DNA of 64,000 nt from Kaistia adipata DSM 17808. Lineage in GTDB: Bacteria; Pseudomonadota; Alphaproteobacteria; Rhizobiales; Kaistiaceae. Every line of letters starts with the position of its first letter. Positions within the stretch are counted from its first letter, which is position 1. Under the pieces are notes generated by a model. It was not told the DNA's origin. It did no database searches and was given only the letters and a program-made list of their open reading frames with translations. Shown here in pieces: positions 26,307-40,931 of the stretch. The DNA lies in contig NZ_KE383991.1 of assembly GCF_000423225.1 (NCBI RefSeq), forward strand, positions 382,217 to 446,216, given 5' to 3'. Position numbers and translations under genes: made by a program.

Positions 26307-26606
26307 ATGACCCAATCCGTCTGGATCCACTATTCTCGCCCCCGTCCGCACTGGTACCTGCTGGGCGACAAGGAAAAGCAGGCACTCGCCGACGCCTGGC
26401 AAGCTGTCCGCGACGGCGCCAAGGCCGCCGGCGCCGAGTTCCACGGCCGCTTCCACATCCGCGGCCAGCACGACTTCCAGGAAGTCGAGATCTGGAAGTT
26501 CGCCGGCACCACCGAGGCGTTCAACCATTGGCAGGCGCTCTGCGCGGCGCGCTACAACGAGTTCCACGCCTTCTCGAACAATGTCGGCCTGGAAACGGGC
26601 ACATGA
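26307..26606 (+). CDS. Small conserved hypothetical protein, related to the C-terminus of its upstream neighbour
   Basis: A 99-residue soluble protein (VWIHYSRPRPHWYLLGDKEK at the start, NHWQALCAARYNEFHAFSN near the end). The alternation of beta-like and helix-like stretches suggests one ferredoxin-like domain that could dimerise, like Dabb proteins or rhamnose mutarotase. It begins 2 bp after the previous gene and overlaps the ATPase gene by ATGA, so its stoichiometry is tied to both. The function is not recognised. A mutarotase or small auxiliary subunit is possible. Confidence 0.8.
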   Translation: MTQSVWIHYSRPRPHWYLLGDKEKQALADAWQAVRDGAKAAGAEFHGRFHIRGQHDFQEVEIWKFAGTTEAFNHWQALCAARYNEFHAFSNNVGLETGT

Positions 26607-27367
26607 GCACGCCGCTGCTGGAAGCGACCGGCATCCGGCGCACATTTGGCCATGTACAGGCCCTCAAGGGCGCCAATTTCCGCGTCATGCCGGGCGAGAT
26701 CGTTGCCCTGATCGGCGATAATGGCGCCGGCAAGTCAACCCTCGTCAAGATCCTCTCCGGCGCCGACAAGCCGGATGAGGGCACGCTGCGCGTCGAGGGC
26801 AAGGCGGTGAGCTTCACCTCCCCGCTCGACGCGCAGGAATGCGGCATCGCCACCGTCTATCAGGACCTGGCGCTCGCCCCCGACCTGACGCCGGCCGACA
26901 ATCTCTTCCTCGGCCGAGAACTCACCCGCAGCGGCCTTCTCGGCAAGCTCGGCTTCCTCGACCGCCGCACCATGCAACGCCAGGCGGTCGAGCAGTTCGC
27001 CAAGCTCGGCGTCCAGCTGAAGTCTCAGCGCGTGTCTATCGCCTCGCTCTCCGGTGGCCAGCAGCAATCCGTCGCCATCGCCCGCGCGGCGATGTGGGCG
27101 AGCAAGCTCGTCATACTCGATGAGCCGACAGCCGCGCTGGGCGTGGTCCAGACGCAGCGCGTGCTCGACCTCTGCCGGCGCGTCCGCGACGCCGGAACCT
27201 CCGTCGTCCTGATCAGCCACAACATGCCACAGGTCCTGGAAGTCGCCGACCGCGTGCATGTGTTGCGCCTCGGCCAGACGGTCGCCGACCTCCGTGCCGC
27301 CGACGCGAGCGTCGCGGACCTGGTGCGCGAGATGACCAGCGGACAAGCCAAGGAACTGGCAGCATGA
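26603..27367 (+). CDS. Sugar ABC transporter ATPase, single ABC domain
   Basis: A 254-residue ATPase with one complete nucleotide-binding domain: Walker A GDNGAGKST, Q-loop VYQDLALAPDL, signature SLSGGQQQS and Walker B VILDEPTAALGV, then the switch histidine ISHNM. Most CUT2 ATPases carry two fused domains. This one matches the shorter FrcA-like subtype that dimerises. ATG 26603 overlaps the small upstream gene, and the end overlaps the permease gene by ATGA. It powers import with 27364-28398 and 28437-29390. Confidence 0.93.
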   Translation: MSTPLLEATGIRRTFGHVQALKGANFRVMPGEIVALIGDNGAGKSTLVKILSGADKPDEGTLRVEGKAVSFTSPLDAQECGIATVYQDLALAPDLTPADNLFLGRELTRSGLLGKLGFLDRRTMQRQAVEQFAKLGVQLKSQRVSIASLSGGQQQSVAIARAAMWASKLVILDEPTAALGVVQTQRVLDLCRRVRDAGTSVVLISHNMPQVLEVADRVHVLRLGQTVADLRAADASVADLVREMTSGQAKELAA

Positions 27368-28398
27368 GCAACGAACTCGCCATCGCCCCCGTCGAGAGCA
27401 CGGAAGACCGGCTCCTGAGGCTCGTCGCCGGCGGTTGGATCTTCCTCCTCCTGCTCGCGCTCGTCGCGATCTTCCTGGTGCTGAGGCCAGCCCAGTTTGG
27501 CTCCGCCTACAACGTCCAGCAGCTCTTCATCAACGCGGCCATCCTGCTCGTGCTGGCTGTCGGTCAGACCTATGTGGTGATCACCTCGGGCATCGACCTC
27601 TCGGTCGGCTCGGTCCTGGTCTTCGCCTCGGTCGTCTCGGCCAAGCTAATGCTTTTCCTCTCCGGTGCCGGCGGCACCACCTATGGCACCACGGCCGCAG
27701 GCTGGGACATCATCGCGATCGGCACGGTCGCGGCCCTACTCGTCGGCGTGGCCTGGGGCACGTTCAACGGCATCCTGATCGCCGTCACGAAGATCCCGCC
27801 GCTCATCGTCACGCTCGGCACCATGGGCATGGCGCTCGGCGGCGCGCAGATCCTCTCCGGTGGTGTCGACGTCCGCGCCATGCCGGAACTGCTGGTGACC
27901 CATGTCGGCTCCGGCCGCATCCTCGGCATCCCTACGCTGGTCGTGATCGCGACCGTGACCGCCGTCATCGCCGGCATCGTGCTGCACATGACCCGCTTCG
28001 GCATGCACATCTTCGCCGTCGGCTCCAACGCCGAAGCCAGCCGCCGCAGCGGCATCCCGACGACGGCGCGACTGATCCAAGTCTACGCCATCTCGGGCCT
28101 GATGGCCGGCATCGCCGCGGTCATGTCCAACGCCCGCTTCTCGACGACCACCATCAATGGCCACGCCATGGACAACCTCGCCACCATCTCGGCAGTGGTG
28201 CTTGGCGGGACCAGCCTGTTCGGCGGTGTCGGCAGCGTGTTCGGCACCGTGGTGGGCGTCTTCATTCCCATCATCCTGCTCAATGGCTTCGTCATCCTTG
28301 GCATTCCGCCGTTCTGGCAAACGGTCGCCATGGGTGCCGTGCTGATCCTCGCCGTCTGGATCGACCAACTGAAGCGACGGCTTCGCAAACGGGGCTAG
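27364..28398 (+). CDS. Sugar ABC transporter permease, CUT2 (RbsC/FrcC) type
   Basis: A 344-residue membrane protein. Its first hydrophobic segment starts near residue 22; the family motif SGIDLSVGSVLVFASVVSAK and the loop AVGSNAEASRRSGIPTTARL follow. One permease is encoded, so a homodimeric channel is expected, in contrast to the two-permease importer at 4379-6426. It is translationally coupled to the ATPase. It lies 38 bp before the SBP gene. Confidence 0.93.
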   Translation: MSNELAIAPVESTEDRLLRLVAGGWIFLLLLALVAIFLVLRPAQFGSAYNVQQLFINAAILLVLAVGQTYVVITSGIDLSVGSVLVFASVVSAKLMLFLSGAGGTTYGTTAAGWDIIAIGTVAALLVGVAWGTFNGILIAVTKIPPLIVTLGTMGMALGGAQILSGGVDVRAMPELLVTHVGSGRILGIPTLVVIATVTAVIAGIVLHMTRFGMHIFAVGSNAEASRRSGIPTTARLIQVYAISGLMAGIAAVMSNARFSTTTINGHAMDNLATISAVVLGGTSLFGGVGSVFGTVVGVFIPIILLNGFVILGIPPFWQTVAMGAVLILAVWIDQLKRRLRKRG

Positions 28399-28436
28399 CG
28401 CCACGCACGCTCCGCAATACCAAAGGGGAATAGAGA

Positions 28437-29390
28437 ATGACCAAGACGATCGTATCGGTGACTGTGGGTCTCGTGCTGACCTCGCTCTCCGCTTCGGGTG
28501 CCTTCGCGCAGGAGGCCAACTCGGTAGCCCTCGTGCTCGGCTCGAGCGGCAGCCCGTTCTACCAGGCCATGCAGTGCGGCGCGCAGGCCCGCGCCAAGGA
28601 GCTCGGCCTTTCGCTTACCGTCTCAGCCGCGGACCAGTTTGCCGCCGACGCGCAGATCCCGGTGGTCAACGCAGTGACAGCGAGCGCCCCCAAGGTAGCT
28701 GCCATCGTCCCGACTGACATGCAGGCGCTGATCCCGCCGATGCGCGAACTCGCCGGACGCGGCACGCAGGTAATCACGGTCGACCAGACCATCTCCGATC
28801 CGTCGATCCTAAAGACCCAGATTCTGACCGACAACAAGGCCGGCGGCGGCATGGCGGCCGACGCGCTGGCGGCGCTGATCGGCAAGAAGGGCAAGGTTCT
28901 GGTCATCACCCAGCCCCCCGGCTCGCTGGCCCAGGACGCGCGCGAGGCCGGTTTCGCGGCGACGCTGGCCGAGAAATATCCGGACATCCAGTATCTCGGA
29001 CCGCAATACCAGTCGAACGATCCGCAGCGCGCCGCCGAGATCATCACCTCGACGCTGTCCGCCCATCCTGACCTCGCCGGCGTGTTCTCCACCAATGACC
29101 AGGGCGCGATCGGCGCGATCACCGGCCTCCGCCAGGCTGGCGCAGTCGGCAAGGTGAAGATGGTGGCCTATGATGCCGCCAGCGCCGAGGTTGCCGCGCT
29201 AAAGAACGGCGAGCTCCAGGGCCTGATCGCCCAGAGCCCGAGCCAGCAGGGCGCGGTCGCGATGGACATCGCCGCGAAGCTCATTGCCGGCGAGGCCGTC
29301 AAACCCGTCACCATGGCCGAGATCGTCGCCATCGGCGCCGATCAGCCGGAACTCGCCGACAAGTACGAGTACGTCGCCGGCTGCATGTAA
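28437..29390 (+). CDS. Sugar ABC transporter periplasmic binding protein
   Basis: A 317-residue SBP with a classical Sec signal ending in GAFAQE (cleavage about residue 24) and a type 1 periplasmic-binding fold (NSVALVLGSSGSPFYQAMQCGAQ, VAAIVPTDMQALIPPMREL, GVFSTNDQGAIGAI). The start ATG 28437 follows AAAGGGGAATAGAGA. It is the last gene of the kinase-BtpA operon and has the best-conserved ligand-contact pattern for a pentose or hexose. A pentose or nucleoside-derived sugar would suit the PfkB kinase. The ligand is not determined. Confidence 0.92.
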   Translation: MTKTIVSVTVGLVLTSLSASGAFAQEANSVALVLGSSGSPFYQAMQCGAQARAKELGLSLTVSAADQFAADAQIPVVNAVTASAPKVAAIVPTDMQALIPPMRELAGRGTQVITVDQTISDPSILKTQILTDNKAGGGMAADALAALIGKKGKVLVITQPPGSLAQDAREAGFAATLAEKYPDIQYLGPQYQSNDPQRAAEIITSTLSAHPDLAGVFSTNDQGAIGAITGLRQAGAVGKVKMVAYDAASAEVAALKNGELQGLIAQSPSQQGAVAMDIAAKLIAGEAVKPVTMAEIVAIGADQPELADKYEYVAGCM

Positions 29391-29425: not shown

Positions 29426-30125
29426 GACGACTTCAGCGGACACGGCGGCGGACGGCCGGTTGAACGCTGGGAAGGAGCCTCGGCCCATGCTCAACGCGGC
29501 GGTCGCCGCCGCCCGGGCTGCTCGGTCCGACGCCCGATCTGAGGATGATCGCGCCGATCGGCCAGGCGCTCCGTTCTCGATGCCACCATTCTGGCGCTGC
29601 CGCCCCAGCCAACTACCGAACCAGGACAGAATCGCATGCGCGCCGACTATGGCGGCGGAAGGTGCCGTCTTGCCAACGGACCCGCGATAGAGCGCGCTTG
29701 AGCAGATGGCAGACGGCGGCCGCATCCTCCGCAGCGCGCGGTCGAAATGATGCGCGTCAGCATTTTGGGAGCGTTCTGCTTCTTCCGCCATGGGATCAGT
29801 CCGGCTTTTGTCGGCCGCAGCTTCCGCAATGATTCTGCCGCAGCCTCGCCTCGAACTCGACGTCCAGAAGCTACCCCTCTCCCTCCCTGCCGGCCTGGGC
29901 GGCGCCGGGTCTGCCGTGTCCGCCACCTGGGCAGTCCCCAAGCAAAACGGCTTCATTGCCCTGCGCTGGAACGCGCTTTTCAACGCTGAGAATTTCTTTC
30001 CGCTTGCGGAAGCAGGCTACCACTTGCCGAATGGCGGGCGTACACGGATAAGTCAGGCTTGACCGCGCTTCGGGGCGGGCTCCAGATAGCGATGTCCAGC
30101 GCGGTCCGGCGAGCGCGCCGTGCCC
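29426..30125. other. 700-bp intergenic stretch, no gene recognised
   Basis: Open frames on both strands here are short or of odd composition, have no ribosome-binding site and resemble nothing. The longest, on the minus strand (29342-29983), is Arg/Ala/Ser-rich and starts inside SBP coding sequence on the opposite strand. The right end must hold the promoter of the GGDEF-EAL gene. I could not pick a convincing -35/-10 pair. Confidence 0.5.
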
Positions 30126-32342
30126 ATGAACAGGGAAGAGACCTTCTGTGTTTCCGAGGCGCCAGCCCTGATGCTCAAGATAGTCATCGTCGACGACAGC
30201 TCGACCAATCAGCGCATCTATTCAAAGCTGGCTAGGCAGCTCGAGTCCGAGCTCGACATCCGCGCCTTCGGAAATCCGCGCAAGGCCCTGGAATGGATGG
30301 CGGAGAACACCGCCGACCTGATCATCACCGACTACAAGATGCCGGCCATGACGGGCGCCGAGCTGACCGCCGCCGTCCGCGCGGACAGCCGCAACTGGGA
30401 CGTCCCGATCATCGTCGTCACGGCCTATAGCGACCAGGAGTTCCGCGTCACGGCGCTCGAGGCGGGCGCGACGGACTTCCTGCTGAGCCCGGTCGACCAT
30501 GTCGAGTTCCTGGCCCGGGCAAAGAACCTGCTAAAGCTGCGGGCGCAGCAGCTGCTGATTTCCGAGCGCGCCGACCAGCTCGAGATCAGCCTGCACGTCA
30601 AGGAGAAGCTGCTGCGCGAGAGCCGTGAGGCGCTGGCGCAGGTGATCGACACCGTGCCCGCCATGATCAACGCGACCGACCGCGACGGGCGCTGCGTCTT
30701 CGTCAATGCCCACCAGGCCGCCTTCTTCGGCAAGGTGCCGGCCGATCTGGTCGGTCAGCCGATCGAGGCGCTTCTCGGCGAGGACCGCGCCCATATCAGC
30801 CGCCGGCTCGACCAGCTGATCCTCAAGACCGGCCGCGCCATGCCGCCGCGCCAGGAAGACGTCTGGGCGCCGGATGGCGAGCACCGCATCTATCTGACCA
30901 GCAAGGCGCCGCTCTACGACGGCATGGGCGAGATCGTCAGCGTGCTGTCGACCTCGATCGACATCACCGAGCAGCGCCATGCCGAACGGCGCCTGCTGCA
31001 CATCGTCAACCACGACCCGCTCACCGGCCTGCCCAACCGCGCGATGCTGCGCGATCGCCTGCGTCGCGAACTGGCCCGCGGCCGTCGCGGCGACCAGAAT
31101 TTCGCCCTGCACTTCATCGACCTCGACCGCTTCAAGGCGGTGAACGACGCCCATGGCCATCATCGCGGCGATGCGCTGCTGCAGCGCGTCGCCGAGGCGC
31201 TGCAGACGCTGGTCGGCAGCACCCATACGGTGGCGCGTCTCGGCGGCGACGAGTTCGCCATCCTGCAGCCGGACATCGACGGACCCGAGGATGCCGGCCG
31301 GCTGGCGCAGTCGATCCTCGACCTGCTCAACAGCACCGAGGACAGCCCGCTCGCCCTCAATATCGGCGCGAGCATCGGCGTTACGCTGGCGCCCCTCGAC
31401 GGCACGGATCCGGACGAACTGCTGAAGAATTCGGACCAGGCCATGTATCTGGCCAAGTCGCTCGGCGGCGGCACCTGGCGCTTCTTCGCCGCCGACATGC
31501 GGCCACGCGCCAGCCAGACCGCCCATCTCGAGACCGAGTTGCGCGGGGCGCTGTCGCGGCAGGAATTCGTGCTGTTCTACCAGCCGCAGATCGACCTTCG
31601 CAGCCGGAAGATCGTCGGCGCCGAGGCGCTGCTGCGCTGGCAGCATCCGCAGCGCGGCCTGCTCTCCCCCGGCGCCTTCCTGAGCCTGGCGGAAGAGACC
31701 GGCCTGATCCTGCCGATCAACGAATGGGTCCTGAACGAGGCCTGCCGCCAGGGCGCGGCGTGGGAGGCGATCGGCCATGGCGATCTGCGCATCGCCGTCA
31801 ACATGTCGCCGATCCAGTTCCGTCGCCAGGGCGTGGAAGGCCTAGTCAAGGACGCCCTGCGGGCGAGCGGCATGCGGCCGACCTCGCTGGAACTCGAACT
31901 CACCGAAGGCATCCTGCTCGGCCATGACGAGCAGATCGTCAAGCAGATGCATGTCCTGCGATCGCTCGGCGTCACCCTGTCGGTCGATGATTTCGGCACC
32001 GGCTATTCCTCGCTGAGCTACCTGCGCAGCTTCCCGCTGCACCGGCTGAAGATCGATCGTTCCTTCGTGCAGGATCTCGGCAGCGATCCCAGCGCGCTCG
32101 CGATCGTGCGCACGATCATCGACCTTGGCCACATCCTGAACCTCCAGGTCCTCGCCGAAGGCGTCGAGACGGAGCCGCAACTCTCGCTCCTGCGACTGGA
32201 AGGATGCGACGAGGTGCAGGGCTACCATTTCAGCGCGCCGCTCCCGCCCGATGCCTTCGTCGCCTGGGTGGCGCAGCACGGCCGGGCGAGCTCCGGCCCC
32301 GCCTCCGGGGCGACGGAGACCGAGCATGCGCGCGCCGAATAG
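30126..32342 (+). CDS. REC-PAS-GGDEF-EAL cyclic-di-GMP turnover protein
   Basis: About 738 residues in four domains. The N-terminal receiver carries the phospho-acceptor Asp69 (DLIITDYKMP), but the conserved Lys that should precede Pro is Ser (DFLLSPVD). A PAS domain covers about 170-285. The cyclase has canonical GGDEF (373-377) but lacks the RxxD inhibitory site. The EAL phosphodiesterase has EAL at 500-502 (GAEALLRWQHP) and the catalytic ELTEG, DDFGTGYSSLSYL, KIDRSF and LAEGVE. Both enzymes look competent. The start could be ATG 30126 or ATG 30171 (MLKIVIVDD). The end overlaps the RpfC-like sensor by 17 bp, so the two are co-expressed and may form a phosphorelay. Confidence 0.93.
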   Translation: MNREETFCVSEAPALMLKIVIVDDSSTNQRIYSKLARQLESELDIRAFGNPRKALEWMAENTADLIITDYKMPAMTGAELTAAVRADSRNWDVPIIVVTAYSDQEFRVTALEAGATDFLLSPVDHVEFLARAKNLLKLRAQQLLISERADQLEISLHVKEKLLRESREALAQVIDTVPAMINATDRDGRCVFVNAHQAAFFGKVPADLVGQPIEALLGEDRAHISRRLDQLILKTGRAMPPRQEDVWAPDGEHRIYLTSKAPLYDGMGEIVSVLSTSIDITEQRHAERRLLHIVNHDPLTGLPNRAMLRDRLRRELARGRRGDQNFALHFIDLDRFKAVNDAHGHHRGDALLQRVAEALQTLVGSTHTVARLGGDEFAILQPDIDGPEDAGRLAQSILDLLNSTEDSPLALNIGASIGVTLAPLDGTDPDELLKNSDQAMYLAKSLGGGTWRFFAADMRPRASQTAHLETELRGALSRQEFVLFYQPQIDLRSRKIVGAEALLRWQHPQRGLLSPGAFLSLAEETGLILPINEWVLNEACRQGAAWEAIGHGDLRIAVNMSPIQFRRQGVEGLVKDALRASGMRPTSLELELTEGILLGHDEQIVKQMHVLRSLGVTLSVDDFGTGYSSLSYLRSFPLHRLKIDRSFVQDLGSDPSALAIVRTIIDLGHILNLQVLAEGVETEPQLSLLRLEGCDEVQGYHFSAPLPPDAFVAWVAQHGRASSGPASGATETEHARAE

Positions 32343-34836
32343 GTTTCTTCAGGCGCTGGCCGCCCCCCTCCGCCGAGTGATGACGCGCCTGCGGGAGCGG
32401 CCCGACAGCGAACACGAGATGAGCTTCAACCGGCTCGTCTTCGCCATCATCATCGTCATCGTCCTGCTGGTGAACCGCAGCGGCGGAGACATGGGCTATG
32501 CCCTCGACGTCATGGCGCTCTACATTCCGCTCGCCCTGGCCGTGCTCGCCCATATCCTCATCTATCCGGGCATCTCGCGCGGGCGCCGCTTCTTCGCCCT
32601 GGTGATGGATTGCGGCTTCCTCTCGTGGCAGCTGCATCTCGGCGGCGAGGTCGCGGCGCTGTTCTTTCCGATCTATCTCTGGGTGATCTTCGGCAATGGC
32701 TTCCGCTTCGGCCTGACCTCGCTCGCCATCGCCATTCCCGTCGCCACGCTCTGTTTCGCCATCGTGGTGCTGACGACGCCATTCTGGTTCCAGCTCTGGC
32801 ACCTCTCCATCGGCCTGTTGAGCGGGCTCGTCATCCTGCCCGCCTATGCCGGCACGCTGATCCGCAAGCTGTCGCAGGCGACGCAGACCGCCGAGGAGGC
32901 GAGCCAGGCGAAGAGCCTCTTCCTCGCCAGCGTCAGCCACGAATTGCGGACACCGCTCACCGCCATCGTCGGCATGACGGGCTTGCTGCGCGCCAGTCCG
33001 CTGGTCGCCGAACAGCGCGACATGGTCGAGACCGTCGAGGTCGCCTCCCGTTCGCTGCAATCGCTGATCAACAGCCTGCTCGACCTCTCCCGCATCGAGG
33101 CGGGGCGGATGCCGGTGTCGAACAGCGAGATCGACCTGATCGCGCTGCTCGTCGATGCACGCCGTCTCGTCGAGAGCCAGGTGCGCGAATGCGGCCTGAC
33201 CTTCGACATCCATGTGACGCCGCGCACGCCGCTGCGGCTCTATGGCAGCCGCCAGCACCTGCACGAGATCCTGGTCAACCTGGTCGGCAACGCCGTGAAG
33301 TTCACCCGCGAAGGCGGCATCACCATCGCGGTGGACGGCCAGCAGGCGGAAGACGGCAAGCTTCGGCTGACGATGGAGATCACCGATACCGGCATCGGCA
33401 TCGCCCCGCAGGACCAGCAACGGATCTTCGAGGACTTCACCCAGGCCAATGCCAGCATCATGAACCGCTTCGGCGGCACCGGCCTCGGCCTCGCCATCGC
33501 CCGGCGACTGGTCGAGCTGCTCGGCGGCTCGATCTCGGTCGAAAGCGCCCTCGGAGAAGGCAGCACGTTCCGCTTCGACATCCTGGCCTCGACCTTGCCG
33601 GACGAGGGCCTATACGCCGAGGAGCCCTGGCGCGAGCGCGGCGTCGTCCTCGTCTGCCGGGATGCCACACCGCTGGAGGCGTTGATCGGCAGCCTCGCCT
33701 CGCTCGGGGTGAAACCGATCCTGGCCGATCCGCTTCTCGGGCCGGCACGCATGTTCCCGCCCGAGGCGGCCAATGCCGTGCGCCTGCTGTTCGAGCCGAA
33801 TGGCCGCAATCTGCCGCTGCCGTTCGCGGTGGCAAATGGCATGCCGACCAAGGGCGTCCTGATCCAGCCGGACGCGTTGCCGACGCTTCCCAGCCTCGCC
33901 ACGCGGCAGCGCTGCACCAGCCTGATCTCGGAACGCCCGACGGCGGCGGAGCTGCGGCGCGTTCTGACGATCGCCTGCCGGCTGAACACGCCGACGCCGA
34001 CGCTCGCGCAACGGCGCGCCGCGGCGCCACGCCCGATCCGGCCGAGCCGGCCCCGTCGCGTGATGCTGGCCGACGACAACCGCATCAACCAGCGCGTCTT
34101 CTCGCGCATCCTCGAGGCAGCGGGGCACTCCGTCCTGCTGGCGGAGACGGGCGACCAGGCGCTCGACCTGCTGGAAGAGAAGGCCGATCAGATCGACATC
34201 GTGCTGATGGACTTCAACATGCCCGATACGGACGGGCTGGAGGCCACCAAGCTCTATCGCGTGATGGCCACGGGCAGCCGCAGGCTGCCGATCGTCGGCC
34301 TCACGGCCGATGCGACCGCGCTCCACGACAGCCGGTGGCGCGATGCCGGCATGGACGACTGCCTGATCAAGCCGGTCGAGCCGGCCGAACTGCTCGCCGC
34401 CATCGATCGGATCACCGGCGATGCAGCCGATCCATCGGCCCGGCCCGAAACGCACCTGACCCTCGTGCGCTCCAACCTTCTGCCCACCCTGGACGAAAAG
34501 GCGGTCGAGCGGCTGCGGCGGCTCGGCAATGCGGAGTTCGTGAACGACCTGATCGAAGACTATCTGGCGGACGCCGAGGTCATGCTGGACCGTCTGTCCA
34601 AGAGCGCGGCGCGGGGCGATATCGAGGCGTTCCGCAGCGACGACCACGCGCTGCAGAGCAGTTCGGCGAACATGGGCGCTCTCGCCCTCGGCGGCATCTG
34701 CAGGTCCTGGCGGGACCTGCGCGGCGACGAACTCAAGGCGAGCGCCGCGGAATTCACCAGGCAGGCCAGGGCCGAACTGCGGCGGACCCAGAAAGCCATG
34801 CGCCTCTGTTCGGGGCGCGAGGCCGGGCTGGGCTGA
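32326..34836 (+). CDS. RpfC-like membrane hybrid sensor histidine kinase (HK-REC-HPt)
   Basis: An 836-residue protein. A short cytoplasmic start with RPDSEHEM is followed by five to six membrane segments (about 38-175, including FPIYLWVIFGNGFRFG). The DHp domain has His205 (SVSHELRTPL). The ATPase domain has NLVGNAVKF, DTGIG and GGTGLGL. A degenerate middle region follows, then a receiver with Asp629 (IVLMDFNMP) and Lys (LIKPVEP), then an HPt with His774 (HALQSSSANMGA; the usual Lys/Arg after HxL is Gln). The membrane module and domain order match the DSF sensor RpfC. ATG 32326 follows GGAG. It is convergent with an RpfF-like synthase. Confidence 0.92.
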   Translation: MRAPNRFLQALAAPLRRVMTRLRERPDSEHEMSFNRLVFAIIIVIVLLVNRSGGDMGYALDVMALYIPLALAVLAHILIYPGISRGRRFFALVMDCGFLSWQLHLGGEVAALFFPIYLWVIFGNGFRFGLTSLAIAIPVATLCFAIVVLTTPFWFQLWHLSIGLLSGLVILPAYAGTLIRKLSQATQTAEEASQAKSLFLASVSHELRTPLTAIVGMTGLLRASPLVAEQRDMVETVEVASRSLQSLINSLLDLSRIEAGRMPVSNSEIDLIALLVDARRLVESQVRECGLTFDIHVTPRTPLRLYGSRQHLHEILVNLVGNAVKFTREGGITIAVDGQQAEDGKLRLTMEITDTGIGIAPQDQQRIFEDFTQANASIMNRFGGTGLGLAIARRLVELLGGSISVESALGEGSTFRFDILASTLPDEGLYAEEPWRERGVVLVCRDATPLEALIGSLASLGVKPILADPLLGPARMFPPEAANAVRLLFEPNGRNLPLPFAVANGMPTKGVLIQPDALPTLPSLATRQRCTSLISERPTAAELRRVLTIACRLNTPTPTLAQRRAAAPRPIRPSRPRRVMLADDNRINQRVFSRILEAAGHSVLLAETGDQALDLLEEKADQIDIVLMDFNMPDTDGLEATKLYRVMATGSRRLPIVGLTADATALHDSRWRDAGMDDCLIKPVEPAELLAAIDRITGDAADPSARPETHLTLVRSNLLPTLDEKAVERLRRLGNAEFVNDLIEDYLADAEVMLDRLSKSAARGDIEAFRSDDHALQSSSANMGALALGGICRSWRDLRGDELKASAAEFTRQARAELRRTQKAMRLCSGREAGLG

Positions 34837-34848
34837 ATCTCCGGCGGC

Positions 34849-34879
34849 TGGCGATGCGCCCCCCCGGGACGCATCGCCA
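34849..34879. terminator. Hairpin between convergent rpfC-like and rpfF-like genes
   Basis: Perfect 10-bp stem TGGCGATGCG / CGCATCGCCA with an 11-base loop, in the 50-bp gap between the two stops. A bidirectional terminator is likely, although there is no T-tract. Confidence 0.6.
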
Positions 34880-34886
34880 ATCGACC

Positions 34887-35855
34887 TCACTCGGCGGCCA
34901 CGAGAACGGAAACATCCGATTGCAGGCTGGCGAGACGCCGGTTCTGGGCCGAGCAGAGACGATCCATCTTGCGAAGGTCGGCTTCCGTCAGGTTCAGCGC
35001 CGCCTCGGCCCAGATGTCGACGACATCGATCAGTTCCTCGAGCGTCACCGGGTTGACCCGCCGCCGGGCCCGATAGAGCGCATGATGCGCGTTATGCTTG
35101 CGATTGTGGCGCGCGATATAGTCAAGCACGGCCGCGTGTCCCTGCCCATCCTCGGCCAGAACATCCACCACCCCCATCTCGTAAAGTTCCTCGGCCGTAT
35201 GGATGCGGCCCGAGAGGATGAGCGCCTCGGCCTTGTCGCGGGACATGCGCCGGGACAGGAAGCTGTAGGCGCCCATGCCGGGGAACATGTTGAACAGGAT
35301 TTCCGGCAGGCCCATCTTGGCGCTGCGCTCGGCCACGATCAGGTCGAAGGAGAGCGCGTGCTCGAAGCCGCCGCCGAGCGCATCGCCCTGCACCAGCGCC
35401 ATGGTCACGACCGGCGCGTCGAAGGCCACGGCATTGCGGTGGATGGCCTCGACGGCGACATGGCCGTAGTGGCGCATCGCATCGAGGTCCCGGCTACGGA
35501 TCCGCTGCGCGAAATGGCCGAGATCGCCGCCCAGATTGTAGATGCCCGGCACGGCCGAGGCCATGACGAACCAGGAGAACGGCGCGTCGGCGGGGCTCGC
35601 CAGGTTCGAGAAGGACTGGGTGATGGCCGCCTGCATCCGGCTGATGTCGTGCATCAGCTCATGCGTGTAGGACGGCTTGTCGACCGGATCCATGTAGCAC
35701 CAGCAGGTCGAATTGGCCGTGTCGATATCGAGATGCAGGTTGTCATAGCCGATGTCGCGGATCGCCCTGGCGGCATCGGACATGGCGGCATTGCCCGCGC
35801 CGGCCGTCATCGCATGAAGAGCAATCGGTGCATTGATCATTGGGAGGGAAGTCAT
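34887..35855 (-). CDS. RpfF-like crotonase-family DSF synthase
   Basis: A 322-residue enoyl-CoA hydratase-fold enzyme. The oxyanion-hole segment is NLGGDLGHF (about 107-115). The DSF-synthase signature is VQGDALGGGFEHAL, then MGLPEILFNMFPGMGAYSFL. Glu165 and Glu185 are exactly 20 residues apart, the spacing of the two catalytic glutamates of Xanthomonas RpfF. RpfF makes cis-2-unsaturated fatty acid signals from acyl-ACP or acyl-CoA. ATG 35855 follows GGAGACAAGGA. The convergent layout with the RpfC-like sensor matches Xanthomonas rpf clusters. The chain length of the product is unknown, and an ordinary enoyl-CoA hydratase role is the main alternative. Confidence 0.9.
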   Translation of the reverse strand: MTSLPMINAPIALHAMTAGAGNAAMSDAARAIRDIGYDNLHLDIDTANSTCWCYMDPVDKPSYTHELMHDISRMQAAITQSFSNLASPADAPFSWFVMASAVPGIYNLGGDLGHFAQRIRSRDLDAMRHYGHVAVEAIHRNAVAFDAPVVTMALVQGDALGGGFEHALSFDLIVAERSAKMGLPEILFNMFPGMGAYSFLSRRMSRDKAEALILSGRIHTAEELYEMGVVDVLAEDGQGHAAVLDYIARHNRKHNAHHALYRARRRVNPVTLEELIDVVDIWAEAALNLTEADLRKMDRLCSAQNRRLASLQSDVSVLVAAE

Positions 35856-36294
35856 TCCTTGTCTCCATTTTTAGGTTAACCAGCAAGAACGCCACGCGCG
35901 GGAGTGCCGCGAGGACACTGTCCAATACATTAGGTCCATGACACGGGACGAAAATGAGAAAGTAGCGCCCCGTCGGCCCGATCAAGGCCGCATATGCGTT
36001 CAAGGTGAATCGCGCGGTACGCAGAACAAAGTTCATCAAGGGCTACGAGCAACCGCGGCCGCGAGGACGCGGCCGAATACTCGATTGCCTGCCGGCGTGC
36101 TTGGCCGGCTCGCCGGAGGCGCTCTGCCGCAAGGATCGGACGGTCAGACACCTGTGGCAGCGGTTCGATCAACGGCCGATTCCGCTGCAGATCCACGCCA
36201 AACGCCCGATCGCCGGGCGGCTCGAGAACGCCGCGGCACCACCATGGCCCGTGGCTTGAAACCCTGGCGAGACTGGCCTGTCCCACCATCAACT
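35856..36294. other. Upstream region of the rpfF-like gene, no second gene recognised
   Basis: These 439 bases hold an AT-richer stretch near 35865-35935, the likely promoter of the rpfF-like gene, then GC-rich sequence. Overlapping frames of 84-147 codons on both strands have no recognisable domain; none has a convincing ribosome-binding site. It may contain a degraded gene, but I cannot name one. Confidence 0.45.
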
Positions 36295-36332: not shown

Positions 36333-37043
36333 CTATGCCGAGAGGACCACGACCTTCGTGTCCACCGGCGTCCGCGCGTAGAGGTGGATCATGTCCTGGC
36401 TGAGCAGGCCGACGCAGCCGCTGGTGACGCCCTTGCCGATCGAGTTGGGATGGCTGGAGGCGTAGATCGTGTAGAGCGTGTATTTGCCATCCTGGTAGAG
36501 ATAGAGCGTGCGGGCGCCGAGCGGATTGTCGAGGCCGCCCGGCATGCCGCCGGCATATTTGGCCGCCTCGGGCTGGCGCGCGATCATCTCCCTGGGCGGC
36601 GTCCAGGTCGCCCATTCGGCCTTGCGGCCGACATAGGCGTCGCCACTCCAGCGGAACCCGTCACGGCCGACATTGGCGCCATAGCGCGTCGCCATGCCGT
36701 CGCCCTCGACGCGATACACGTAGTATTTTCCAGGATCGACGATGATCGTGCCGGGCGCTTCCTTGGTCGCGTAGCGAACCGTCCGGCGGTAATACTTCGG
36801 ATCGACCTTGCTGACATCGGCGGCGGGAATCGGAAATTTTTCGTCGGGCACCGGTCCGTAGACCTTCTTCGCCTCGGCGAGGCTCATGCCGCCGGATGTC
36901 GCGCAACCGGCGAGCCCCAGCGCGGCGACGCCGGCGCCGGCACCCAACAGGAACGACCGGCGGCTGGGCCGCTCCGGTCCACACCCGAGCAGGGCGAGCT
37001 CTTGCATCCGGCGATTGTCGGCATTCCGATCGTCCATGGTCAT
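36333..37043 (-). CDS. YkuD-family L,D-transpeptidase, exported lipoprotein
   Basis: A 236-residue envelope enzyme. The N-terminus carries a twin-arginine-like signal SRRSFLLGAGAGVAALGLAG with a lipobox LAGC immediately after it, so a lipid-anchored periplasmic protein exported by Tat or Sec is predicted. The catalytic core is at the C-terminus: a histidine in SSHPNSIGKGV and the nucleophile cysteine in TSGCVGLL, the YkuD pattern. The family makes 3-3 peptidoglycan cross-links or anchors proteins to the wall. ATG 37043 follows GGGAAG; ATG 37037 is an alternative. It is monocistronic and not obviously tied to its neighbours. Confidence 0.92.
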   Translation of the reverse strand: MTMDDRNADNRRMQELALLGCGPERPSRRSFLLGAGAGVAALGLAGCATSGGMSLAEAKKVYGPVPDEKFPIPAADVSKVDPKYYRRTVRYATKEAPGTIIVDPGKYYVYRVEGDGMATRYGANVGRDGFRWSGDAYVGRKAEWATWTPPREMIARQPEAAKYAGGMPGGLDNPLGARTLYLYQDGKYTLYTIYASSHPNSIGKGVTSGCVGLLSQDMIHLYARTPVDTKVVVLSA

Positions 37044-37462
37044 GATGTCGGACTTCCCATCTCTTCGTACCCCGGCAGGGATGATACCCGGGAATGCTCC
37101 GCCGCGCGCGCCTTGCCGAACTAAATTTCTCGGCTGCGGTTCAACCGACAAGCCTGGCTTGGGCACCCGGACGGCAGCCCGATCCGCCCTTCCCAGCTTC
37201 CGGCTTGGACCGGCGGCAGGCTCGCCCCGATCGCGTCTCTCCCCCGAGCCGCCCGTGATCGCAGGCGGGCCTTCGCCGCGACAGCATCGGTCGCTGCGGC
37301 GACGGAGACCGGATGCGGCACTCGCAGCCCCTTCGGCAAGGCGACGAGGCTGGCGCACGCCGTTCGCCGCCCGGAGCAAAGGCAGCCTCCCCGCGAGGAA
37401 ACCATCGCCTTGCCTGTTCGCCGCCCAGCCGCTACAGCACGCGGAAAGACGGAGTGGTGCCA
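37044..37462. other. Divergent intergenic region between the L,D-transpeptidase and LacI genes
   Basis: These 419 bases must contain two divergent promoters. Long frames reading through on both strands are extensions of the flanking genes without ribosome-binding sites. I see no palindrome resembling the operator at 38568, so I find no sign here that the LacI gene autoregulates. Confidence 0.45.
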
Positions 37463-38527
37463 ATGAAGCCCTCGACGCTGATGGAAGTTGCCCAGCGCGC
37501 CGGCGTGTCGACCGCGACGGTCGCACGCGTGCTGAAGGCGAAGGGCTATGTCTCCGACGTGGCGCGCAGCCGCGTCGAGGCGGCGCTGAAGGCGACCGGC
37601 TACAGGCCCAATGCCGTCGCCCGCGGCCTGCGCCAGCAGCGCAGCTTCACCATCGGCCACATGCTGACGGCCATCACCGCCAATCCGTTCTTCGTCAACG
37701 TCGCGCACTGGGCCGAGGAGGCCGCGCTCGCCGAGGGCTACAAGACCTTCCTCTTCAACCATGACGGCAATCCGGAACGCGAGCGGCTCGGCGCGGAACG
37801 CTTCATCGAACGCCGCGTCGACGCGGTGCTGTTCACCAACGCCGTCGACAGCCGCAACGTGCAGCTGTTGCGAGAGGCCTCGATCCCGGTCATCCAGCTC
37901 GAGCGCGCCGCGACGATCGAGGCGCCCTCGATCCGCGTCGACAACCAGACCGGCGCGCTCGAGGCGATCGCTCATCTCGCCGAACTCGGCCACCGGCGCA
38001 TCGCCTTCATCGGCGGCGACCCGAACCTCATCCGGCGCGGCGACAGCCATTTCACCAGCGTCGAGGAAGAGCGCCTGGCCGGATACCGGATCGGACTGCG
38101 GCAAGCCGGCCTTCCTGTCGACGAGGCGCTCATCCGGCTCGGGCTCTACTACAGCATCGCCGACGGCGGCTCGGGCATCGAGGGCTACAAACACATGAAG
38201 GCGCTGCTCGCCCTCCCCGAGCGCCCGACCGCAATCTTCGCCACCTGCGACATCCTCGCGGCCGGCGCGCTGCAGGCGATCTACGAGGAAGGCCTCCGGG
38301 TGCCGCACGACCTGTCGATCATCGGCTTCGACGACACGCTCGCCGCCAACCTCGCGCCGCAGCTGACCACGGTGGCGCAGCCGATGGAAGATCTCGGCCG
38401 CCTCGGATTCCGCACCGCACTCGCCGCGATCGAGGGCGAAAGCGTCCCGAATGACTTGGTTCTACCCGCGCGCCTGGTCCTGCGGCGCTCGACCGGTCCC
38501 GCACCGCACCCAAACTCGCGCCGCTGA
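37463..38527 (+). CDS. LacI-family transcriptional repressor
   Basis: A 354-residue LacI-type repressor: helix-turn-helix LMEVAQRAGVSTATVARVL at residues 6-24, hinge helix PNAVARGLRQQ, then a periplasmic-binding-like effector domain (IGHMLTAITANPFFVN, FIGGDPNLIRRGDSH, SIIGFDDTLAANL). ATG 37463 follows GGAGTGG. It lies upstream of, and in the same direction as, a CUT1 sugar importer. The perfect 20-bp palindrome at 38568-38587 between the two is its probable operator. The inducer is presumably the imported sugar. Confidence 0.94.
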   Translation: MKPSTLMEVAQRAGVSTATVARVLKAKGYVSDVARSRVEAALKATGYRPNAVARGLRQQRSFTIGHMLTAITANPFFVNVAHWAEEAALAEGYKTFLFNHDGNPERERLGAERFIERRVDAVLFTNAVDSRNVQLLREASIPVIQLERAATIEAPSIRVDNQTGALEAIAHLAELGHRRIAFIGGDPNLIRRGDSHFTSVEEERLAGYRIGLRQAGLPVDEALIRLGLYYSIADGGSGIEGYKHMKALLALPERPTAIFATCDILAAGALQAIYEEGLRVPHDLSIIGFDDTLAANLAPQLTTVAQPMEDLGRLGFRTALAAIEGESVPNDLVLPARLVLRRSTGPAPHPNSRR

Positions 38528-38532
38528 GCCGA

Positions 38533-38561
38533 TTGACCTCGCCTTGTGCGGGTGCTAACGA
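38533..38561 (+). promoter_or_regulatory. Predicted promoter of the CUT1 importer operon
   Basis: TTGACC (38533-38538), a 17-bp spacer and TAACGA (38556-38561) preceded by TGC, an extended -10 feature. The -10 is poor, but initiation would fall at the left edge of the operator. Confidence 0.4.
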
Positions 38562-38567
38562 TTTTAA

Positions 38568-38587
38568 ATGTGTCATCGATGACACAT
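38568..38587. promoter_or_regulatory. LacI-family operator, perfect 20-bp palindrome
   Basis: Arm ATGTGTCATC followed by its exact reverse complement, with CG at the centre, 40 bp after the LacI stop and 120 bp before the SBP start. It has no loop or T-tract, so an operator is far more likely than a terminator. Confidence 0.8.
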
Positions 38588-38707
38588 GATGAAAACAGCC
38601 GTTTTCGACGAACGACAGGCCTGCGCAAGACAGGCTTCAGAACGAATTCCAGGAAACGCCGGCCACCGTCGCACGACGGCAGAGCCACTCATCGGAGGGC
38701 ATACCCC

Positions 38708-39979
38708 ATGCGCATCAAGACTCTTCTGGCCGCGACCACGATCGCGGCGGGCCTTCTGTCCGGACCCGCCCTCGCGGAGACGACCGTCAATTTCTGGCAG
38801 TTCTCGACCCGCGATGCCGACATCGCCGCCTGGAACGAGGCGATCGCCGCCTTCGAGAAGGCCAATCCGGACATCAAGGTCAACATGGAGATCGTGCCCT
38901 GGTCGGAACAGCAGCAGCGCCTCGTCAGCGCGCTCTCGGCCGGCGGCCTGCCCGACGTCTCCATGCTCGGCAACAACGTCGTCGCGCAGTTCCAGTCGGC
39001 CGGCGCCCTCGCCCCGCTCGACGACTATTTCGCCGCCTATGACAAGGAACACGGCACCAATGTCGCCGAGGACATCTGGCCGGGCGACAAGGGCTACTAC
39101 AACCTCGCCGGCAAGTGGTGGGCCTCGCCGATCAGCGTCGAGACGCGGGCGCTCTACTACCGCAAGGACCTGTTCAAGGACGCCGGCCTCGCCCCCGCGA
39201 AGCCGCCGCAGACCTGGGCCGATTTCGCCACCGACGCGGTCAAGCTGACCAAGGACGGCACCTATGGGGCGGCGCTGTCGATGAGCCTCGACTACTTCAC
39301 CGTCCAGAACTTCATGAGCGCCTATCTCGGCTATGGCGCACGCATGATCGGCGAAGACGGCAAATGCGGCTTCGAGACGCCCGAGTTCAAGGAAGCGCTC
39401 GACACCTATGTCAGCGTCTACAAGAACAAGGCGACCCATCCCGACGCGCCGAGCATGAGCGGCGACACCTTCCGCAAGGGCTTCCGGGATGGCAAGTTCG
39501 CGATGATCCTGTCGGATGCCGGCCTCTACAAGGACCTGCAGAACGACAAGTCCGCCTTCCTCGACGAAGTCGGCATCGCCATGGTGCCGGCCGGCCCGAA
39601 GAACCGTTCCGGTTTCCTCGGCGGCTGGCCGCTGGTGCTCTGGGATGCCTCGGAGAACAAGGAGGCGACGGCGAAATGGATCATGTTCGCCACCCATGGC
39701 GACGCGCTGAAGACGCTTGCCACCAATGGCGGCTTCATCCCCGGCAGCGTCTCGCTCGCCAAGGGCGCGCCCTGGACGGAGTTCCCCTACCCGCTCTTTG
39801 TCGAGCAGCTGCAGGATGCCCGCCCGTACCAGTATCCGAACGAGGCGATCCCGCAGATGGGCCAGCTCGAGGTCGACACGATCCAGAAGGCCGTGCAGGC
39901 CGTGGCGCTCGGTCAGCAAACGACCGATCAGGCGACCGCGCAGCTCTGCACCAGCATCAACGAAGTGCTGGCTCGCTAA
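38708..39979 (+). CDS. CUT1 (family 1) ABC transporter sugar-binding protein
   Basis: A 423-residue SBP. The Sec signal MRIKTLLAATTIAAGLLSG ends at ALA (about residue 24). The mature domain shows family 1 features: VNFWQFSTRDADIAAWNEAI, VPWSEQQQRLVSAL, LPDVSMLGNNVVAQF and MVPAGPKNRSGFLGGWPLVLW. ATG 38708 follows CGGAGGG. It is the first structural gene after the operator at 38568. No ATPase is encoded in this operon, so a shared MalK/UgpC-type ATPase, possibly 52417-53493, must serve it. Confidence 0.93.
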   Translation: MRIKTLLAATTIAAGLLSGPALAETTVNFWQFSTRDADIAAWNEAIAAFEKANPDIKVNMEIVPWSEQQQRLVSALSAGGLPDVSMLGNNVVAQFQSAGALAPLDDYFAAYDKEHGTNVAEDIWPGDKGYYNLAGKWWASPISVETRALYYRKDLFKDAGLAPAKPPQTWADFATDAVKLTKDGTYGAALSMSLDYFTVQNFMSAYLGYGARMIGEDGKCGFETPEFKEALDTYVSVYKNKATHPDAPSMSGDTFRKGFRDGKFAMILSDAGLYKDLQNDKSAFLDEVGIAMVPAGPKNRSGFLGGWPLVLWDASENKEATAKWIMFATHGDALKTLATNGGFIPGSVSLAKGAPWTEFPYPLFVEQLQDARPYQYPNEAIPQMGQLEVDTIQKAVQAVALGQQTTDQATAQLCTSINEVLAR

Positions 39980-39998
39980 GGCGCGCCAGGTCATCCTC

Positions 39999-40931
39999 AT
40001 GGCCACGACACGCCAGGATTCCGTCCGGGCAACCATCGGGGCGGCCGCGCGCCGCCCCGATCGGGCCCGCCTCTATGATCGCCTGCTGCCCTACGGCATG
40101 ATGGCGCCTGCGGTGTTCGTCGCCTTCGCGATCGCCATCGTCCCGCTCTGCTACGCGTTCTGGCTGTCGCTGCAGGACTGGTACATGCTGCGCCAGCCCG
40201 TACCGAAATGGGGCGGGCTGGTGAACTACCGCCAGCTCCTCGTCGACACCCAGCTCTGGATGGCCTTCGGCCGCACCTGGATCTGGACGATCGGCACCGT
40301 CTTCGTCGAGCTGCTCCTCGCCCTTCCGATCGCGCTGCTGCTCAACCGCGAGACGGCGATCGCGCGGACCGCCTCGGCGGTGATCCTGCTGCCCTGGGTC
40401 ACGCCCTTCATCGTGCTCGGCTTCGGCTGGCGCTTCCTGCTCGATTCCGACGTCGGCCCGATCCACGCCTTCCTGCACGCGATCGGCATCGCCGGCGACA
40501 GCTCCGTGCTGAACGATCCGGTGCTCGCCTTCGCCACCATCATCTTCATCTCGGGCTGGAAGGGCACGCCGTTCCTGGTGATCGCCCTGCTGGCGGCGCT
40601 GAAATCGATACCCGACGAGCTCTATGAGGCCGCCGAGGTCGACGGCGCCAATGCCTGGGCGCGCTTCCGGCACGTCACGGTACCGGCGATCCAGAACACG
40701 GTCGTCACCGTCGGCCTCGTGCTCGGCATCCTCGCCTTCTACTCGTTCGACCTGCCCTGGATCATGACCAAGGGCGGCCCGCAGGACGCGACGACCATCG
40801 TCGGTATCGCCATGTACAAGGCCGTCTTCCTCGATCTCAGGCCCGCCTACGCCGCAGCGATCAGCATCGTCATGCTGCTCCTGCTGTTCATCGCCTCGCT
40901 GCTCGCCCTGAGGGCGCGGAGGACCACCTGA
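39999..40931 (+). CDS. CUT1 ABC transporter permease (MalF/UgpA type)
   Basis: A 310-residue permease. The N-terminal 30 residues are charged and cytoplasmic; membrane segments begin at PYGMMAPAVFVAFAIAIVP. The EAA loop is LYEAAEVDGANAWARFRHVTVP. The start is ATG 39999, 20 bp after the SBP stop, with AGG upstream. It pairs with the next gene, which it overlaps by one base (TGATG). Confidence 0.93.
   Translation: MATTRQDSVRATIGAAARRPDRARLYDRLLPYGMMAPAVFVAFAIAIVPLCYAFWLSLQDWYMLRQPVPKWGGLVNYRQLLVDTQLWMAFGRTWIWTIGTVFVELLLALPIALLLNRETAIARTASAVILLPWVTPFIVLGFGWRFLLDSDVGPIHAFLHAIGIAGDSSVLNDPVLAFATIIFISGWKGTPFLVIALLAALKSIPDELYEAAEVDGANAWARFRHVTVPAIQNTVVTVGLVLGILAFYSFDLPWIMTKGGPQDATTIVGIAMYKAVFLDLRPAYAAAISIVMLLLLFIASLLALRARRTT

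Follow-up and report, generated by a model that had tools for sequence, protein, structure and literature searches.

A three-gene locus at positions 30126-35855 of a 64-kb stretch of DNA from Kaistia adipata DSM 17808 (the window) was analysed. A preliminary description had read it as a quorum-sensing locus of the diffusible signal factor (DSF) type, with an RpfF-like enzyme, an RpfC-like sensor and a GGDEF-EAL protein in place of the HD-GYP regulator RpfG. The three genes were found exactly where that description had placed them, and their domains and order were all verified. The locus is a DSF-type cassette in which the effector of RpfG has been exchanged, and it is widespread rather than unique.

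The first gene (30126..32342, + strand), in the rpfG position, encodes a regulator with the order REC-PAS-GGDEF-EAL (Pfam Response_reg, PAS_4, GGDEF and EAL), whose receiver falls in the RpfG-receiver clade; an internal ATG at 30171 is judged as plausible a start as that at 30126. It overlaps by 17 nt the second gene (32326..34836, + strand), which encodes an 836-aa hybrid sensor kinase of the RpfC type, so assigned from its sensor homology and the RpfC tree, with the order sensor-HK-REC-HPt (HK, histidine kinase; Pfam HisKA, HATPase_c, Response_reg and Hpt). The third gene (34887..35855, - strand) encodes a 322-aa RpfF-type protein, a DSF synthase as judged by profile, tree, residues and predicted fold. 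Genes 2 and 3 are convergent, with their stop codons 50 bp apart, an orientation that had been correctly likened to that of Xanthomonas. The arrangement is not due to chance, since a four-domain regulator gene before rpfC and beside rpfF recurred in 50 of 144 distinct loci (window included).

Identity of the three gene products

The profile, the tree, the active site and the predicted fold all identified the crotonase as a predicted DSF synthase. It scored 382 bits against PRK08788 (cut-off 177), and its best PDB chains were four RpfF-type proteins, with E values from 7.9e-51, for RpfF of Xanthomonas campestris pv. campestris (Xcc), to 5.8e-48; the first chain outside the RpfF type was a fatty-oxidation subunit (E = 4.8e-15). 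A tree was built by a quick method with long branches flagged (two short rows were removed, and 142 rows were reduced to 90 by an 82% identity threshold). In it, a branch with SH-aLRT 99 set four crotonases from the window's own genome apart from the 90 locus rows and the RpfF chain of Xcc, and the window protein grouped with Xcc and Burkholderia-type RpfF. When its predicted structure (mean pLDDT 85.6) was compared with PDB folds, the top 12 chains, from five entries, were all of the RpfF type (target TM 0.89-0.93, rmsd 2.0-2.5); chains below row 12 gave target TM values of 0.55-0.83 and E values of 6e-14 or weaker.

In Xcc RpfF, residues E141 and E161 are catalytic and G86 and G138 are linked to thioesterase activity (PMC9040811). 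This numbering was carried to the window protein through the PDB-chain alignment. The catalytic pair corresponded to E165 (35361-35363) and E185 (35301-35303), which are 20 residues apart, as had been noted from the sequence; both Glu and both Gly residues were present in 50/50 GGDEF-EAL loci, the window included. No second RpfF was found in the genome, where the next crotonase matched at E = 2.9e-12.

The product of gene 2 was assigned to RpfC because its sensor homology extends beyond the generic kinase domains. Pfam and hydropathy bore out the SEH motif at the membrane module and the HK-REC-HPt order that had been reported. In the membrane sensor module (32377..32880, + strand), delimited by homology and hydropathy, the putative DSF-sensing motif RPDSEHEM (R25 to M32, 32398-32421; recognised from the Xcc RpfC residues of PMC5391125) opens about five hydrophobic segments. 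The 170-aa module was 28-35% identical, along its length, to five RpfC sensors of the HD-GYP type. With a 16-row profile (E <= 1e-6), it was detected in 15 of 101 relatives. All 15 belong to the 17 whose RpfF match exceeded the cut-off, and the module was detected in none of the other 84 (0/84). In the two RpfF genomes without the sensor (G040 and G054), a GGDEF-EAL gene adjoins rpfF (loci L154 and L156). The HisKA His, the receiver Asp and Lys and the HPt His of RpfC were invariant in 50/50 GGDEF-EAL loci, and by alignment the relay residues and most of the sensor residues are those of RpfC. The tree, the fold and the linkage of sensor to RpfF led to rejection of the view that the pair is an ordinary crotonase next to some generic hybrid kinase.

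The exchange of HD-GYP for REC-PAS-GGDEF-EAL also proved to be real. In a receiver tree that rests on 122 columns, 18 GGDEF-EAL, 12 HK and 13 HD-GYP regulator receivers fell on one side of a branch (support 95/88) and 28 others on the opposite side; the latter were 20 other receivers of Kaistia genomes (drawn from the best matches) and eight RpfC receivers, and one of 21 Kaistia receiver loci was omitted. The 30 GGDEF-EAL and HK receivers formed a further clade (100/98). An earlier quick tree with other controls agreed; its regulator clade also took in seven extra receivers whose loci were untyped. These results indicate that the receiver (30180..30518, + strand; phospho-acceptor Asp69 at 30330-30332) is orthologous to that of RpfG, and that only the effector differs, PAS-GGDEF-EAL standing for HD-GYP. 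Compared with the PAS of HK-type regulators, the window PAS reached scores as high as 95 bits, but no more than 20 bits against RpfR. Since PAS and receiver are common to the HK-type regulators, receiver and PAS were kept while the effector changed.

The GGDEF domain (31008..31466, + strand) has an intact signature and no RxxD inhibitory site; the EAL domain (31536..32240, + strand) has intact metal-binding and catalytic signature residues. Across the loci, GGDEF was intact in 48/48 and the EAL metal and catalytic residues were present in 48/48, with one EGL instead of EAL. The RxxD site was variable elsewhere (R in 18/50, D in 27/50). Both cyclase and phosphodiesterase activity are thus possible predicted activities of the regulator.

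Other assignments of the regulator were rejected. No HD-GYP domain (PF13487) was found in the genome by a search that was positive in 4/14 control genomes, and the four PF01966 matches carried no HD-GYP motif in a regular-expression scan, which ruled out an HD-GYP protein elsewhere in the genome. An RpfR-type receptor was ruled out by the PAS residues and by the receiver that stands instead of an N-terminal RpfF-interaction (FI) domain. The receiver and the gene place fit RpfG proper; the protein has no HD-GYP effector and hence was not filed as RpfG.

Outputs behind RpfF and RpfC

Gene neighbourhoods were surveyed at 148 loci, from which four duplicates were removed to leave the 144 distinct ones; the 80 named loci were those that ranked highest, out of 172, in similarity to the Kaistia protein, and totals over the 144 are not frequencies. 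The nearest of the named loci by RpfF included those of Kaistia granuli, K. defluvii, K. soli and K. terrae (85-89% identity). The gene before rpfC encoded REC-PAS-GGDEF-EAL at 50 loci, REC-PAS-HK at 14 and REC-HD-GYP at 17. The remainder had rpfC without a recognised partner (C_only, 14), an EAL-type protein without a recognised rpfC (20), or neither within limits (29). Automatic typing had wrongly labelled as C_only the REC-PAS-GGDEF-EAL loci L104 and L153 and the REC-PAS-HK locus L146, and L040 and L080 were cut by contig ends. Pfam confirmed the domains in 10 output proteins of the surveyed kinds. RpfF faced RpfC in 48/50 GGDEF-EAL, 14/14 HK and 17/17 HD-GYP loci.

The GGDEF-EAL loci were alphaproteobacterial in 48 cases and unassigned in two; all 14 HK loci were alphaproteobacterial and all 17 HD-GYP loci non-alphaproteobacterial, and an HD-GYP regulator was found in 0/91 alphaproteobacterial loci. 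When the class was sampled evenly, RpfF (E <= 1e-45) was present in 24/385 alphaproteobacterial genomes, that of the window included, which suggests that DSF-type signalling exists in several groups of the class. At 24 of the 25 RpfF places in this sample (all but the window's), the output was REC-PAS-HK in 13 by listing and in L146 by eye, and GGDEF-EAL in one (L148); at the remaining nine, several of which are truncated by contig ends, no typed regulator lay directly before rpfC. In the order sample, five of the seven RpfF genomes outside the genus had GGDEF-EAL with RpfC (L153 and L157 by eye), and the other two had a GGDEF-EAL protein without RpfC. In the phylum sample, RpfF matches occurred in 63/398 genomes, of which 34 were typed, the window included.

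The wiring had been called unusual for an alphaproteobacterium, and this claim did not hold: in the order sample, each of the five genomes from outside the genus that carry RpfC has GGDEF-EAL, the HK form is the commoner one in the even class sample, and HD-GYP occurred in no alphaproteobacterial locus examined. The opposite proposal, that GGDEF-EAL is the norm in all alphaproteobacteria, was likewise ruled out by the HK form being commoner in that class sample.

An unrooted RpfC tree of 54 rows was built carefully, with the sensor motif excluded and L146 omitted as a long branch. The output label required at least three changes on this tree, where the minimum for three states is two. A branch supported at 100/99 parted 20 rows (the GGDEF-EAL rows except L148, and three C_only rows) from all HK and HD-GYP rows; L148, the second GGDEF-EAL case, lay among HK rows, with weak support for its nearest neighbour.

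A REC-PAS(-PAS)-histidine kinase gene stood before rpfC at L131, L133-L137, L139, L140, L142-L145, L089 and L091, where the relay from RpfC would lead to another kinase and not to a c-di-GMP (cyclic di-GMP) enzyme. Beside a GGDEF-EAL protein and without rpfC, rpfF was seen at L120, L121, L124, L154, L156 and L161. L120, L121 and L124 are on plasmids of Methylobacterium oryzae, Sphingomonas parapaucimobilis and M. radiotolerans, respectively, and on these three plasmids the two genes are convergent. Judged by eye, the proteins of L120, L121 and L161 begin with what look like several membrane helices. Such proteins adjoining rpfF are possibly a further type of DSF receptor, partly plasmid-borne. 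At L180-L187 (family f231, non-Alphaproteobacteria) rpfF faces rpfC with no recognised regulator directly before rpfC, and several f231 RpfF matches carry one in-frame stop. On a conjugative plasmid of Methylibium petroleiphilum (L126), an RpfF-like gene lies between genes for an iron-containing redox enzyme and a ferritin; no rpfC- or rpfR-like gene was found in this 10.8-kb stretch.

The cassette and its probable transfer

Among 14 Kaistia genomes, RpfF was present in 10, the sensor in the same 10 and the receiver in nine of those; the exception is G007, where a 5.1-kb contig ends within the regulator gene. In Kaistia the three genes occur or go missing together, as a 5.7-kb cassette that sits mostly between unrelated genes. 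The window was compared with six loci and their 8-kb flanks (Kaistia species, the Kaistia-like 'Mesorhizobium' BR1-1-16 and Ancylobacter moscoviensis), counting pieces of more than 250 bp. DNA similarity, at 78-84%, was confined to about 30016-35975, which is the widest extent of the cassette and bounds nearly all the DNA common to these loci; three other similar pieces, of 278-554 bp, lay outside these bounds. A seventh locus, the 5.1-kb L040, was 89% identical in DNA from 31526 to 36114 of the window. Flanks of more than 1 kb were shared by 2/10 Kaistia pairs, 2/28 Ancylobacter pairs and, overall, by 38/502 pairs that share more than 3 kb of cassette, many of them relatives of Roseomonas, in which the cassette seems to have been inherited in place. 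The three genes appear, from these comparisons, to travel as a unit.

Identity of RpoB to that of the window was 82.7% for Ancylobacter moscoviensis, 82.3% for Breoghania and 91.1% for K. soli. For RpfF the values were 80.1% for A. moscoviensis and 51.3% for Breoghania, and for RpfC they were 76.2% for Ancylobacter, 40.7% for Breoghania and 74.7% for K. soli. Because the relatedness of RpfF and RpfC is discordant with that of RpoB, these identities favour a movement of the cassette between families. No foreign base composition of the cassette was seen.

By eye, sugar ABC transporter genes flank the cassette (26528-29390 and 36333-40931), and its right side also has an L,D-transpeptidase-like gene and one for a LacI-type regulator; all these genes appear to bear no relation to it. 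No rpfB- or rpfH-like gene was seen by eye among the neighbouring open reading frames of the window, and a promoter and terminator scan gave nothing exceeding chance.

Proposed signalling and comparison with known systems

The cassette probably encodes a self-contained DSF-type quorum system in which a phosphorelay drives a GGDEF-EAL c-di-GMP enzyme, the signal, the phosphotransfer, the net enzymatic activity and the behaviours being extrapolated from the family. RpfF would make a cis-2-unsaturated fatty acid from 3-hydroxyacyl-ACP, and RpfC would sense it at the membrane. Phosphate would pass from RpfC H205 to D629 and H774 and then to D69 of the regulator, which, once phosphorylated, would alter c-di-GMP through its GGDEF and EAL domains. 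RpfC may also restrain RpfF, a role to which the 3m6m complex of the two points. That a fatty-acid signal controls c-di-GMP, as the preliminary description proposed, is what we infer by analogy. A net phosphodiesterase direction is slightly favoured, because c-di-GMP is broken down in the two core routes that have been described, those through RpfG and RpfR.

Several observations weigh against this proposal. Receivers normally carry a conserved Lys, and ordinary phospho-switching is doubtful because the regulator's receiver has Ser or Thr in its place (50/50 GGDEF-EAL loci). At RpfC position 22, which is required in Xcc, the window has Met and not Gln. The window RpfF reached only 208.7 bits on the NCBIfam RpfF equivalog NF053515, below its cut-off of 550, and Pseudomonas aeruginosa DspI, likewise implicated in a DSF-type signal (PMC4504480), ranked only 23rd by fold, amid ordinary crotonases. 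Among five further RpfF-type proteins, the one nearest to Xcc RpfF in the tree alone exceeded the cut-off (579 bits), and RpfF of Burkholderia arboris, which adjoins a PAS-GGDEF-EAL (RpfR-type) gene, scored 187. Since just one of six scanned RpfF-type proteins passes, with B. arboris RpfF at 187, the cut-off is narrower than the family, and annotation by NF053515 misses part of it.

The missing Lys bears on the strongest alternative, in which phosphorylation does not switch the regulator, the receiver is a docking module, the PAS_4 domain (30648..30977, + strand) senses the fatty acid directly in the manner of RpfR or RpfS, and RpfC is accessory. The Lys was replaced in all 64 GGDEF-EAL and HK regulators, by 48 Ser and two Thr in the former (Ser121 in the window, 30486-30488) and by 13 Ser and one Thr in the latter. 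It was retained as Lys or Arg in 17/17 HD-GYP regulators (three by eye) and as Lys in 28/28 control receivers (by eye). Xcc RpfS, too, binds DSF through a PAS_4 (PMC4504480), a likeness by which direct binding of a fatty acid by the predicted PAS_4 sensor domain is possible. However, the acidic pair, the phospho-acceptor Asp and the Thr of the receiver were invariant in 48/48, as were the RpfC relay residues in all 50 loci, and a dead relay needs neither. The PAS domain also lacks most of the signal contacts of RpfR, in which S169, N172, Y183, R187 and N202 contact the Burkholderia signal BDSF (PMC6361424). When these residues were mapped by our own reckoning, from exact spacing in one RpfR row, N172 and Y183 were each found in 0/50 GGDEF-EAL loci, R187 was Glu in 49/50 and Asp in 1/50, and N202 was Lys in 50/50; only S169 was often kept (Ser in 37/50). 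Because four of the five contacts are absent, the window's among them, signalling through RpfC is preferred over PAS sensing, which is considered unlikely.

Position 22 speaks for a second alternative, that RpfC senses another lipid or cue and not the product of its own cassette, so that there is no classical autoinducer loop. DSF sensing by Xcc RpfC is reported to require R15, D17, S18, E19 and Q22 (PMC5391125). Four of these five residues are present in the window RpfC; Q22 is replaced by Met (M32). Position 22 was Met in 47/50 GGDEF-EAL loci (of the other three, L148 has Gln, one has Leu and one Ile) and Gln in 14/14 HK and 17/17 HD-GYP loci, and S18 was kept as Ser or Thr in only 42/50 GGDEF-EAL loci. 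Against this, R15 was kept in 42/50, D17 in 46/50 and E19 in 50/50, and the sensor was not found without RpfF among the 101 relatives. The pairing of GGDEF-EAL with Gln22 in L148 ruled out Met22 as a strict mark of GGDEF-EAL output, and the 14 C_only rows had nine Gln and five Met. On the RpfC tree Met22 is placed as a clade mark not tied to output, and a different chain length or branching could account for Met in a normal loop. A foreign cue is therefore regarded as improbable, somewhat more so than PAS sensing.

A purely metabolic role, with the crotonase acting in fatty-acid metabolism and the gene pair as a metabolic sensor without signalling, would accommodate the low NCBIfam score and the wording 'crotonase/enoyl-CoA hydratase family protein' in 8/14 matching plasmid records (the other six have no annotated feature), yet it is very improbable given that the tree, the Glu pair, the thioesterase-linked Gly and the fold all fit DSF synthases and that linkage to the RpfC sensor was strict in the sample. 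These records illustrate that alphaproteobacterial rpfF genes tend to carry a crotonase-only annotation.

Under the favoured phosphorelay reading, the change of RpfC Q22 to Met and that of the receiver Lys to Ser argue that sensing and switching differ from those in Xanthomonas, and these two residue-level departures yield clear predictions. A broader model is offered tentatively: the RpfG receiver may be a general socket behind RpfF-RpfC whose effectors (HD-GYP, PAS-GGDEF-EAL and PAS-histidine kinase) were exchanged at least three times by parsimony. The alphaproteobacterial receiver would have lost its Lys switch and become non-canonical, and the sensor of the main GGDEF-EAL clade would have changed its ligand preference (Gln22 to Met). 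The result would be a third type of DSF signalling, mobile by horizontal transfer, with an output that can both raise and lower c-di-GMP.

An RpfC relay that ends in a GGDEF-EAL protein, and one receiver type joined to three effectors across the Proteobacteria, make testable how quorum signals are rewired by effector exchange, whether a Lys-less receiver still transmits, and on which residue the fatty-acid preference of RpfC depends. Two core routes of DSF perception have been described, RpfC-RpfG (HD-GYP) and RpfR (PAS-GGDEF-EAL) (PMC4504480), and alphaproteobacteria are said, from KEGG orthology, to contain the RpfC-RpfG pair (PMC8895600). In the titles and abstract starts of the open-licence papers among the matches listed, which do not extend to subscription journals, no description of RpfC with a GGDEF-EAL or HK partner was found.

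Like the Xanthomonas RpfF/RpfC/RpfG system, the Kaistia cassette has rpfF convergent with rpfC, a regulator gene directly upstream of rpfC, a homologous sensor module, the same relay order and an orthologous receiver; unlike it, the effector is PAS-GGDEF-EAL, the receiver has Ser for Lys and RpfC has Met22. With the RpfF/RpfR (BDSF) systems of Burkholderia and Enterobacterales it shares the pairing of a DSF synthase with a PAS-GGDEF-EAL protein, and it differs in having a receiver where RpfR has its FI domain, a full RpfC, and a PAS without most of the BDSF contacts (four of five). The alphaproteobacterial REC-PAS-HK versions (for example L131, L139 and L089) have the same RpfF-RpfC pair, REC, first PAS and receiver Ser/Thr; in contrast, their output is a second histidine kinase and their RpfC keeps Gln22. 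An interesting parallel to this REC-PAS-HK form is found in Lysobacter, where RpfG binds three hybrid two-component proteins (PMC8463545).

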